64,000 nt of DNA from Thermomicrobium sp. CFH 73360 (GTDB lineage Bacteria; Chloroflexota; Chloroflexia; Thermomicrobiales; Thermomicrobiaceae): contig NZ_JAMSLS010000002.1 in NCBI RefSeq assembly GCF_023806465.1, positions 1 through 64,000 on the forward strand, in the 5' to 3' direction. Below, one piece after another: positions 6,406 to 59,192 of this stretch. Positions within the stretch are counted from its first letter, which is position 1; every line of letters starts with the position of its first letter. The notes under the pieces are model-generated. The model was not told where the DNA came from. It ran no database searches and saw only the letters and a program-made list of their open reading frames with translations. Position numbers and translations under genes: made by a program.

Positions 6406-7131
6406 ATGGTCCAATTCTCGGTCGCCGAGGAAATCTTCACCACATTTCCGGACTATCTCGTGGTTGTGGTTGTGGCGCTTCATGTCGATAATCATTGCCA
6501 TGTTGAAACTGCTCGTACTCTCTTGGCCGAGACAGTCCGCACAACGCAGGAACGGCTTGGAGGCACCGATCCGAAGGAATTGCGAGCGATTGCAGTCTGG
6601 CGACAGGCATTCCGGGTACTCGGCTGGTCAGCGAGCACCTATCAGAGCTCAGTAGAATCTCTCCTTCGGCGGACTCTCAAGGGAAATCCACCACCCAGCA
6701 TCAATCCCGCCGTTGATCTTGCCAATGCGGCCTCGCTGCGCTTTCTGGTCCCGATCGGCGCTCATGATCTGGAGAGTGCCCCACACGGCCTCACTGTTCG
6801 ACCAAGCCGGGCTGTGGATCGGTTTCTGCCGCTCAATGAGGGTGAGGCAGAGATCCCCGAGCCAGGTGAGTTCATCTATGCACACGCCGACGAAGTCCGC
6901 ACCCGCCGCTGGGTGTGGCGACAGAGTCGACTTGGCCTTGTGACACCAGACTCGCGCAGGATTTTCTTCCCCATCGACGCCTTCCGTCACGTGACCGAGC
7001 AGGCGGCACAAGAGGCGGCCGACTGGCTTGCCGAGCAACTCCGGACACTGCTCGGTGCGTCGATTTTGCGCGGAGTCGTCGATCGGGAGCACCCGGAGAT
7101 CCACCTCAACAACATCGAGCAACCTTCGTGA
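6406..7131 (+). CDS. B3/B4 tRNA-binding-domain protein
   Basis: This 241-residue cytoplasmic protein resembles the stand-alone B3/B4 domain found in phenylalanyl-tRNA synthetase beta chains. These free-standing copies are thought to bind or edit aminoacyl-tRNA or amino acids. Supporting segments are VWRQAFRVLGWSAS, SLLRRTLKGNPPPSINPAVD, ANAASLRFLVPIGAHD and FFPIDAFRHVTEQAA. ATG 6406 has AAAGGG upstream. It lies 18 bases after the glycosyltransferase, probably in one transcript. The exact role is unknown. Confidence 0.75.
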   Translation: MVQFSVAEEIFTTFPDYLVVVVVALHVDNHCHVETARTLLAETVRTTQERLGGTDPKELRAIAVWRQAFRVLGWSASTYQSSVESLLRRTLKGNPPPSINPAVDLANAASLRFLVPIGAHDLESAPHGLTVRPSRAVDRFLPLNEGEAEIPEPGEFIYAHADEVRTRRWVWRQSRLGLVTPDSRRIFFPIDAFRHVTEQAAQEAADWLAEQLRTLLGASILRGVVDREHPEIHLNNIEQPS

Positions 7132-7357
7132 TGAGGGAGACTGATGACACGGCACCTTCCAGATCACACGGTAGATTCCGACGGTGTCAGCGCTGCTGAT
7201 GTGCCGCTCGATGCCGCACCAAACTCGGCTTAGATACGGGTTTCTCCTCGACCAAATGGGGAGTTGAGACGTTGGGCTGACCACCGGAGGAGCGTCCGGG
7301 CGATTTGCCGGGCCGTGCTCCGTTGTCAACACCCCGCAACCCATCACCGCGTTCCTC

Positions 7358-7386
7358 TTGACAGTCAGACAGAAGACTGTTACGAT
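7358..7386 (+). promoter_or_regulatory. Promoter of the dapAB leader
   Basis: TTGACA (7358-7363), a 17-base spacer and TACGAT (7381-7386) form a near-consensus sigma-70 promoter. Transcription would start near 7393, leaving an untranslated leader of about 270 bases before dapA. The 226 bases between the B3/4 gene and this promoter hold nothing I recognise. Confidence 0.8.
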
Positions 7387-7392
7387 GCAAGC

Positions 7393-7661
7393 TGGGCAGG
7401 CTCAGTCAGTGAGCTGGAGACCGTGACGACGCCAAGGCAAGCCGACGAACTTCGAGAAGATTCCCCGACCAGGCGCTTCTTGCCTGTTGCTCCCCGCCGT
7501 GTCTATCCCCTGAAACGCCGTTCCCGCGTTCACTAGCTCTGCTGGACAAGACGCTTGTCCACGTCCAGTTTGCCGAAAGAAGTGAGGCGTGCCTTTCCGG
7601 TGCGACATCGGATGGTCACGCGGTCATCATGCAACGTGTTCGGAAAGACGGAGGGAACGGC
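7393..7661 (+). promoter_or_regulatory. Long structured dapA leader with a ribosome-site-sequestering complement
   Basis: The leader is about 270 bases. GCCGTTCCC at 7517-7525 is a perfect 9-base complement of GGGAACGGC at 7653-7661, which overlaps the dapA Shine-Dalgarno region and touches the ATG. A hairpin at 7542-7568 has two competing pairings (GGACAAG/CTTGTCC or CTGGAC/GTCCAG). GGCAAG/CTTGCC (about 7436-7485) closes another arm. I do not recognise a lysine riboswitch, and the T-box resemblance is too weak. Control at translation is inferred. Confidence 0.5.
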
Positions 7662-8570
7662 ATGCTCGAGGGAACGTTTGTTGCAGTCATAACCCCGTTT
7701 GTAGGTGAGAGGCTCGATGAGCAAGCGCTCGGTCACCTCGTTGATTGGCTTATTACCGAGGGAGTTGACGGTCTTGTCCCATGCGGGACGACTGGTGAGA
7801 CCCCGAGTTTGAGCGATAATGAATGGCGACGCGTGGCCGAATTGGTGATCGAGCGCACAGCAGGCCGGGTTCCGGTCATCGTCGGCACTGGAACGAATTC
7901 GACTGCCGTGAGCATTGCCCGCACGCGAATCGCACGCGAGCTTGGTGCCACCGCAGCAATGGTTGTCACACCCTATTACAACAAGCCGCAGCAGGAAGGT
8001 CTCCTGCGGCACGTCGTCGCGATCGCTGACGCCGTCGATCTGCCATTGGTGGTCTACAACGTCCCCGGGCGGACCGGAGTCAACCTTACCCCCGAGACGG
8101 CGCGCCGGATGGTGGAGCAGGCACCGATCGTCGCCATCAAGGAGTCAAGCGGTTCGCTCGATCAAGTCAGTGAACTCGTCCTTGCCGTGGGGGATCGCTG
8201 CGCGATTCTCAGTGGCGACGACTCGCTCACACTTCCAATTCTCGCCGTGGGTGGTCGCGGTGTCGTCTCCGTCCTCGCCAACGTCGCCCCAGCAGCCACC
8301 GCCGCAATGGTCCGTGCTGCACTGCGTGGAGAACTCGAACGCGCGCGACGCCTCCATCACGAGCTTTTCTTCCTGGCTCGCGCGTTGTTCATCGAGACGA
8401 ACCCCGTTCCCGTCAAGGCCGCTGCGGAGCTGCTTGGCCTGTGCCGTGCCGACGTTCGTCTTCCACTTGCACCACTGACCCCTGCGAATCGAGAGCGCCT
8501 CCGTGCGGTCCTCGCCTCCTGCCCGCACACAGCTGAGCGCCTTCCTCACGCCGTAGGGGAGGTTGCCTGA
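7662..8570 (+). CDS. dapA: 4-hydroxy-tetrahydrodipicolinate synthase
   Basis: This 302-residue TIM-barrel lyase condenses pyruvate with aspartate semialdehyde, the first step toward diaminopimelate and lysine. Visible family signatures are CGTTGETPSLS (substrate loop), TPYYNKPQQEG, the catalytic Tyr in VYNVPGRTG (about Y132) and the Schiff-base Lys in VAIKESSG (K160). ATG 7662 (MLEGTFVAVITPF) fits the family N-terminus and has GGAGGGAA upstream; an in-frame ATG at 7629 lacks a good ribosome site. The gene overlaps dapB by one base. Its aspartate-semialdehyde substrate is made by asd at 61.8 kb. Confidence 0.97.
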   Translation: MLEGTFVAVITPFVGERLDEQALGHLVDWLITEGVDGLVPCGTTGETPSLSDNEWRRVAELVIERTAGRVPVIVGTGTNSTAVSIARTRIARELGATAAMVVTPYYNKPQQEGLLRHVVAIADAVDLPLVVYNVPGRTGVNLTPETARRMVEQAPIVAIKESSGSLDQVSELVLAVGDRCAILSGDDSLTLPILAVGGRGVVSVLANVAPAATAAMVRAALRGELERARRLHHELFFLARALFIETNPVPVKAAAELLGLCRADVRLPLAPLTPANRERLRAVLASCPHTAERLPHAVGEVA

Positions 8571-9349
8571 TGCTGCGCCTTGCGCTTATCGGGATCACTG
8601 GACGTATGGGGCGGGTCGTTGCTGAATGCGCTGCCGCCGCACCAGACATCGAGCTTGTCGCTGGCCTGGTGAGTCCCAGTCGCGACCTGGCGGAGACCTC
8701 CCGCGTGCTTCCGCGCACCGTCCGACTCACGCATGACCTCTCCGAGCTCGTCTCAGGTGTGGACGTCGTCATCGATTTCAGCCGTCCAGAGGTGACGGCT
8801 GATGCGGCACTCGCTGCAGCTGACTCGGGCGTGGCCTTTGTGAGTGGCACGACCGGACTTCGGGAATCGGAGTTCGCTGCCATACGTCAGGCTGCAACAT
8901 CGATTCCAGTTGTCCACGCAACGAATTTCAGCATCGGGATAGCGGTGCTCTTGCGGATCGTCCCGGAGCTCGCACGGGTACTCGCGAGCTGGGACTGTGA
9001 ACTCATGGAGAGACACCACCGGCAGAAGCGTGATGCACCATCCGGCACGGCGCTGACGCTGGCACGGGTCGTGGCCGCAGCACGAGCGGCCAACACCTCA
9101 TTCGTGTACGGGCGCGGGCCCGGGATCGCCACGCGCCAGCCGGGAGAACTCGGGATCCACGCAATTCGTGCCGGGGGCGAAATCGGCCGACATGCGCTGC
9201 TTTTCGCCTCCGACGAGGAAGGAATCGAGATCACCCATTGGGCACAGAGTCGGCGCGCTTATGCAGCTGGGGCGCTCGAGGCAGCCCGCCGCCTCGTCGG
9301 CCGCTCCCCTGGCCTGTACCAGTTCACTGACCTCCTTTATGAGATGTAA
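8570..9349 (+). CDS. dapB: 4-hydroxy-tetrahydrodipicolinate reductase
   Basis: This 259-residue NAD(P)H enzyme follows DapA in lysine/diaminopimelate synthesis. The N-terminal Rossmann motif is ALIGITGRMGR; VIDFSRPE and FVSGTTGL follow. The catalytic segment is ELMERHHRQKRDAPSGTAL, with His and Lys. The start ATG overlaps the dapA TGA by one base (tgATG), indicating translational coupling. A strong hairpin lies 13 bases after the stop. Confidence 0.97.
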   Translation: MLRLALIGITGRMGRVVAECAAAAPDIELVAGLVSPSRDLAETSRVLPRTVRLTHDLSELVSGVDVVIDFSRPEVTADAALAAADSGVAFVSGTTGLRESEFAAIRQAATSIPVVHATNFSIGIAVLLRIVPELARVLASWDCELMERHHRQKRDAPSGTALTLARVVAAARAANTSFVYGRGPGIATRQPGELGIHAIRAGGEIGRHALLFASDEEGIEITHWAQSRRAYAAGALEAARRLVGRSPGLYQFTDLLYEM

Positions 9350-28336: not shown

Positions 28337-28358
28337 GTGGAGGAAGAGCTGAGGATTG

Positions 28359-28450
<92 letters not shown>

Positions 28451-28461
28451 CCGTCAGGCCA

Positions 28462-59082: not shown

Positions 59083-59192
59083 CGCTCATCCAGAGCGGTG
59101 GAGGGAACGGCCCGAGGAAGCCCGGCAACCAGCGCAGGCCACTGCGCCAGGTGCCAATGCCGGCGGAGCGAAAACGCTCCGCACGATGAGCG
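59083..59192 (+). ncRNA. SAM-I riboswitch (S-box)
   Basis: The conserved S-box aptamer is present: CTCATCCAGAG, GGTGGAGGGAACGGCCCGA, GAAGCCCGGCAACC, AGGTGCCAATGCC, and the P4-like GGAGCGAAAACGCTCC. P1 is closed by CGCTCATC (59083-59090) and GATGAGCG (59185-59192). Binding of S-adenosylmethionine should favour the terminator 22 bases downstream and switch off metX. Confidence 0.97.

Follow-up and report, generated by a model that had tools for sequence, protein, structure and literature searches.

The window analyzed here is a stretch of 64,000 nucleotides from Thermomicrobium sp. CFH 73360 (genome G000 of our sample). On its forward strand, it contains dapA (7662–8570), encoding 4-hydroxy-tetrahydrodipicolinate synthase (TIGR00674, 330.7 bits against a cut-off of 206.15), and, as the next gene downstream, dapB (8570–9349), encoding 4-hydroxy-tetrahydrodipicolinate reductase (TIGR00036, 217.5 bits against a cut-off of 122). 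The dapB gene begins at the dapA stop codon, and the two genes are probably co-transcribed. The start of dapA was selected by the conserved first residues of the protein and gives a ribosome-binding region (7650–7664, forward strand) that consists of the Shine-Dalgarno (SD) sequence GGAGGG (7650–7655) and the ATG at 7662–7664. An alternative in-frame ATG is located 33 bases upstream and would add 11 residues (window 7629–7661); the start at 7662 is more likely because the ATG at 7629 lies 5' of the SD sequence and is replaced by GTG in one of the relatives (L032).

A consensus scan detected a promoter-like site upstream of dapA (7358–7386, forward strand), with TTGACA at 7358–7363, a 17-base spacer, and TACGAT at 7381–7386, the second hexamer being preceded by TG; transcription would start near position 7393. 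The consensus promoter and the leader of about 270 bases that a preliminary description of this DNA had reported are, accordingly, found as described. A TTGAC-N-TA...T site is present 5' of the leader open reading frame (ORF) and its lysine codon, both discussed below, in all 10 leaders of g1 and g5, two genera of this family, so that a transcription start near the dapA ATG is not indicated. No intrinsic terminator was identified between the promoter and dapA, the sole terminator-like site in the region 6600–8000 (6726–6740) being located 5' of the promoter.

Searches of the Rfam families yielded no lysine riboswitch (L-box, RF00168), either in the window at the gathering score or in the region 7200–7800 at E <= 10, in agreement with the earlier statement that no lysine-riboswitch core is recognizable in the leader. 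At E <= 10, the same region contains no T-box (RF00230) and no meaningful match to any other family. Elsewhere in the window, Rfam identifies a SAM riboswitch (59083–59192, forward strand, 82.4 bits) and a TPP riboswitch (28347–28455, reverse strand, 74.2 bits).

A leader ORF and its overlap with the anti-SD segment

We searched 61 genomes of the order and, by score and identity, selected 21 dapA orthologs (L031–L051); DapA-like proteins from other genera with 31–45% identity were excluded before counting as members of a different subfamily. One ortholog (L051) lies at a contig end, and the remaining 20 leaders with upstream sequence come from the genus of the window (g1, n=6), a second genus of the same family f1 (g5, n=4), family f5 (n=8), and family f2 (n=2). 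Named close relatives of this dapA belong to Thermomicrobium sp., uncultured Thermomicrobium sp., Bacterium HR28, and Bacterium HR27.

The preliminary description overlooked an ORF of 37 codons that runs from GTG to TAG (7423–7536, forward strand), would encode (M)TTPRQADELREDSPTRRFLPVAPRRVYPLKRRSRVH, and ends with ...RRVYPLKRRSRVH. A short ORF with an SD sequence, as expected of an attenuator, is thus present between the promoter and dapA, but in the window the spacing of this SD sequence is unfavorable: GGAG (7416–7419) lies only three bases 5' of the GTG at 7423. The leader start codon is, therefore, uncertain, and one of the leaders (L033) has an additional in-frame ATG upstream of it. Among the six g1 species, conservation within the leader is highest in the 3' part of the ORF. 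In the codons for RRVYPL, which precede the lysine codon, five columns vary, all of them silently and one by a CTG/TTG change, and silent variation is the only kind observed across RRVYPLK. The codon two positions after the lysine, inside the anti-SD segment described below, varies among arginine, histidine, and serine, and the stop codon of the ORF is TAG, TAA, or TGA. The silent columns, the varying anti-SD codon, and the swapped stop codons form the pattern expected where an RNA element overlaps the codons of a translated peptide.

The lysine codon, AAA at 7513–7515 (forward strand), occupies the same place in all 10 leaders of g1 and g5. The ORF contains one lysine codon in g1 and two (AAA CGC AAA) in g5, with no run of cognate codons. 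In the 45 long ORFs of the window, lysine accounts for 2.0% of the codons, and 80 of the 337 lysine codons are AAA.

One base after this codon, still within the leader ORF, begins the segment GCCGTTCCC (7517–7525, forward strand), the exact complement of GGGAACGGC (7653–7661) in the dapA ribosome site, and the perfect 9-base complement claimed previously is indeed exact. When the leader is shuffled with its dinucleotides preserved, a complement of at least 9 bases arises with P = 0.019 for a 19-base target and P = 0.066 for a 51-base target, such that the complementarity in a single sequence is a weak argument when taken alone and becomes a strong one when conservation is added. This conservation, on which the earlier proposal depended, was found in the relatives: the anti-SD segment pairs with the ribosome site of dapA in 10 of the 10 leaders of both genera. 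The 9-base register starts at the second position 3' of the lysine codon; its partner in g1 is the 9-base stretch that ends immediately before the ATG, and in g5 the partner is shifted upstream by one position. The duplex energies in the 10 leaders range from -20.5 to -30.0 kcal/mol, and shuffles of the 25-base segment give P <= 0.005 in nine leaders and 0.029 in L040.

In the g1 alignment, 98.1% of the cells are paired, compared to 31–57% when the segment is slid by 1 to 3 columns. Within g1 alone, one pair shows a double-sided change, seen in two species, and the covariation score is equaled by 31 of 500 shuffles, a modest result given that there are only six sequences. A comparison of g1 with g5 shows that both partners differ in pairs 3, 4, 5, 6, 7, and 9; L033 and L040 each contain a single mismatch. 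The g5 register was selected to fit the pairing, so this count leans towards pairing. Judging by sequence and conservation, the ORF, its lysine codon, and the anti-SD segment are genuine features of this leader, and the predicted pairing between the anti-SD segment and the SD region is conserved with compensatory changes. The layout of a translational switch suggested in the preliminary description is thereby supported.

The pattern TAYCCNYTGAARCGC is found once per genome in six of the seven g1 genomes, each time at the dapA leader, and matches twice more in other genera (G106, G110). In a class-wide DNA search, 20-base matches in genus g3 and in G103 were considered as occurrences of a conserved element and rejected as chance matches that lie antisense in apparent tRNA genes.

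The spacer between the leader ORF and the SD sequence is not conserved. The hairpin with two alternative pairings that had been placed there exists in the window (about 7541–7568, forward strand), but it is a local feature, with 50% of the cells paired in the six g1 leaders (pair count, alignment A1), a value equaled by 139 of 500 shuffles. Modeling of RNA folding supports a switch weakly. In fragments that begin at the lysine codon, the anti-SD segment is predicted to pair with the SD region with a probability of 0.62–1.00 in all 10 leaders, and removal of the segment increases the predicted access in seven of them, with no change in L035 and a decrease in L033 and L034. In partition functions of whole leaders with a ribosome masked at the lysine codon, the predicted access to the region from the SD sequence to the start codon changes from 0.19 to 0.21 in the window; access increases by 0.02–0.21 in 9 of the 10 leaders and decreases in L033. 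Access to the SD core by itself increases in 6 of the 10 leaders, the window not being among them. Masking of a ribosome at the stop codon gives an access similar to that with masking at the lysine codon.

dapA leaders in sister families and outside the class

A small ORF with a Lys-Arg pair is present in 19 of the 20 leaders with upstream sequence, including the MKRPR peptide of L049, and, outside g1, this pair is all that the peptides share (their ends are, for example, SAKRKR, RAKRQAPR, GRSKR, and FDIKR). In family f5 (L041–L048), all eight dapA leaders are T-box-like, with the GGGUGG-ACCACG motif, and are organized in the order T-box, terminator-like hairpin (with a T-run in most), small ORF with AAG CGN, and another hairpin directly after; the ORF of L048, longer than the limit of the script, was read by eye. 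RF00230 matches were obtained in all five f5 loci tested (E 3e-17 to 3e-5; in L041 in two pieces), all below the gathering score, at which none of 15 loci matched. At the position that we take to be the specifier, based on the Rfam alignment and general T-box anatomy, AAG is found in all eight leaders, in seven by pattern and in L042 by eye; in the trpE T-boxes of family f1, which served as a control, that place reads TGG in seven of seven cases. The hairpin abutting the Lys-Arg codons covaries, with 91.7% of the cells paired and 7 of the 12 pairs changed on both sides, and none of 500 shuffles scored as high on any measure. Ribosome-masked folding of these eight leaders revealed no consistent switch. 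The dapA leaders of f5 possibly contain two lysine sensors in series.

One of the two f2 leaders, L049 (reverse strand; oriented positions), combines a promoter-like site, an ORF encoding VTILAFATVANKKSQCRIAPIGKTSGR with in-frame AAA AAA (248–331), an intrinsic-terminator-like hairpin (from 369), and, further downstream, the tiny ORF for MKRPR. From its arrangement, this leader could be a classical lysine attenuator, in a single genome; in the other f2 leader (L050), examination by eye identified none of these elements.

Extending the search to the phylum yielded 12 more dapA leaders, all from outside the class. Of these, 11 were scored for the complement and the ORF, one of the 11 (L166) with a doubtful start codon. 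The longest complement in the 11 scored leaders is at most 6 bases, none of them contains a Lys-Arg ORF with an SD sequence, and none of the 12 matched a T-box (Rfam, E <= 0.01). The leader peptide had no match in plasmid records (tblastn).

Other genes of the order have leader ORFs of their own. Upstream of ilvB in g1 and g5 (L142–L148), a small ORF with runs of leucine, valine, and isoleucine codons (LVVVILIL) is followed by a GC-rich hairpin, which looks like a branched-chain attenuator. Similarly, upstream of lysC (aspartokinase) in two f5 loci (L126, L127), small ORFs that encode TTIMIT and TETTITIT are followed by a hairpin and look like threonine/isoleucine attenuators. In the leaders of lysC (six g1 and g5 loci) and lysA (six loci), examination by eye detected no ORF of the dapA type.

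A candidate lysine-responsive attenuator

We propose, as the probable although by no means certain interpretation, that the dapA leader acts by translational attenuation, mediated by the ribosome and responsive to lysine, rather than as a riboswitch. The anti-SD segment is contained in the last codons of the ORF, next to the lysine codon, and, for this reason, the signal is likely sensed by a ribosome that reads this codon. Lysine is the likely signal because, in f5, the dapA leader carries a lysine T-box (AAG) followed by a Lys-Arg ORF and because, in L049, tandem AAA codons precede a terminator. We infer that ribosomes translate the leader ORF (7423–7536) and that, when charged tRNA-Lys is plentiful, the AAA codon would be passed quickly and the ribosome would depart; the segment 7517–7525 would then pair with 7653–7661 and hide the dapA ribosome site. 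Under a shortage of charged tRNA-Lys, the ribosome would wait with AAA 7513–7515 in its A site and would cover the bases to about 7525–7527, preventing the anti-SD pairing, such that dapA (and dapB) would be translated. A ribosome footprint that extends ~12 nt beyond the codon being translated, the value given in the available text of PMC4833913, reaches 7527 and hence would cover the entire anti-SD segment. Direct reinitiation after the leader stop codon, considered as another route, is unlikely given that 125 bases separate this stop from dapA and that reinitiation is tied to a spacing of about 10–16 bp according to the same text (PMC4833913).

Several observations do not fit this proposal comfortably and lead to alternative explanations. 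The window's ORF contains one lysine codon, in contrast to the runs in classical leaders, and a run of this kind is present in the ilvB leader of the same genome. Furthermore, the RRVYPL peptide is under purifying selection in g1 beyond what a codon sensor needs, as could be expected if the nascent peptide RRVYPLKR itself caused an arrest, triggered by lysine, some other metabolite, or an inhibitor, and the arrested ribosome exposed the dapA site; the Lys-Arg pair kept in 19 of the 20 leaders would fit as well. However, this pair is the only part of the peptide that is common outside g1, the f5 lysine T-box points to tRNA charging, and arrest at high lysine, with the end product turning on dapA, makes little sense; we consider peptide arrest unlikely. 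To the same degree, we doubt a general translational coupling in which any ribosome on the leader ORF would open the dapA site, so that dapA would follow translation capacity with no sensing of lysine. Such coupling would agree with the expectation that a ribosome at the stop codon (7534–7536) would also cover part of the anti-SD segment and with the finding that a ribosome masked there gives an access like that at the lysine codon; it leaves without explanation the constant place of the lysine codon in all 10 f1 leaders, despite the rarity of lysine codons in the window, and the lysine T-boxes at dapA in f5.

Two further readings dispense with a leader peptide sensor altogether. Chance complementarity in a plain long leader with no regulation, to which the single-sequence P values of only 0.02–0.07 and the shuffles that match the g1-only covariation score give some room, appears very improbable because the pairing is kept across g1 and g5 with most of the pairs replaced and because the 11 scored dapA leaders from other classes show neither a comparable complement nor a Lys-Arg ORF with an SD sequence. 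Still less probable, in our assessment, is a new class of metabolite-binding riboswitch in which the 9-base element would act as the anti-SD. The long leader and the conserved anti-SD segment would suit such a riboswitch, and computation alone can exclude no ligand class; yet Rfam yields no meaningful match at E <= 10, the conserved core varies in the manner of a coding sequence, the spacer between the ORF and the SD sequence is not conserved, and the hairpin is unsupported. The small-molecule aptamer implied by the preliminary description is thus not supported; the 5' part of the leader looks like a translated small ORF, with the anti-SD segment beside a lysine codon.

In the translational attenuators of erm and cat genes, a ribosome stalled by an antibiotic on the leader ORF stops an anti-SD segment from hiding the SD sequence of the next gene. 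A stalled leader-ORF ribosome would likewise free the next SD sequence in the proposed dapA attenuator, but here the leader ORF itself contains the anti-SD segment, adjacent to a lysine codon, and the downstream gene belongs to lysine biosynthesis. The anti-TRAP operon of Bacillus subtilis (rtpA/rtpLP) combines a T-box and a leader peptide for tryptophan and, in having a T-box and a small ORF in series for the same amino acid, resembles the dapA leaders of f5; it differs in the amino acid and, from the family of the window, in that the latter lacks the T-box. To our knowledge, the known RNA sensors of lysine are the L-box and the lysine T-box. In literature titles and abstract openings, with subscription papers mostly outside the scope, we found no description of a lysine leader peptide or of a dapA attenuator.

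The classical his, leu, thr, trp, ilv, and phe attenuators similarly employ a leader ORF with cognate codons, where the position of the ribosome sets the RNA pairing; unlike the dapA leader, with its single codon, SD target, and no terminator, they switch transcription via terminators and contain codon runs, as described in the available text of PMC3766115. The upstream ORFs for cysteine in mycobacteria and their relatives are also leader peptides without obvious terminators before biosynthesis operons, but they contain cysteine codons, and the available text mentions no anti-SD segment inside the ORF (PMC1262725). SEP5 of Sinorhizobium, also in the aspartate-family pathway, has been proposed to be a leader peptide and likewise contains lysine codons; it differs in having six threonine and three lysine codons and in its location 5' of an aspartate dehydrogenase gene, according to the portion available (PMC10117765). 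The available texts also report isoleucine and tryptophan T-boxes in two Dehalococcoides (PMC2494555) and document swaps between T-boxes and leader peptides (PMC2965389).

The attenuator specificities listed in the available text of PMC3766115 are His, Leu, Thr, Trp, Ile/Val, and Phe, and lysine is absent from that list, so the dapA leader, if interpreted correctly, would extend it. We see about an even chance that this leader is a lysine-specific attenuator with a single lysine codon and with the anti-SD segment in the peptide's own codons, possibly a remnant of a double sensor (T-box and leader peptide, as still present in the sister family) after the loss of the T-box, which would bring lysine and the Thermomicrobiales into the known range of such systems. 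If confirmed, it would show that a single cognate codon can suffice when the anti-SD segment lies exactly under the waiting ribosome, and one gene in one bacterial order would display three lysine-sensing layouts, namely, a T-box with a small ORF, a small ORF alone, and a tandem-lysine ORF with a terminator, which would make the replacement of sensors directly comparable.
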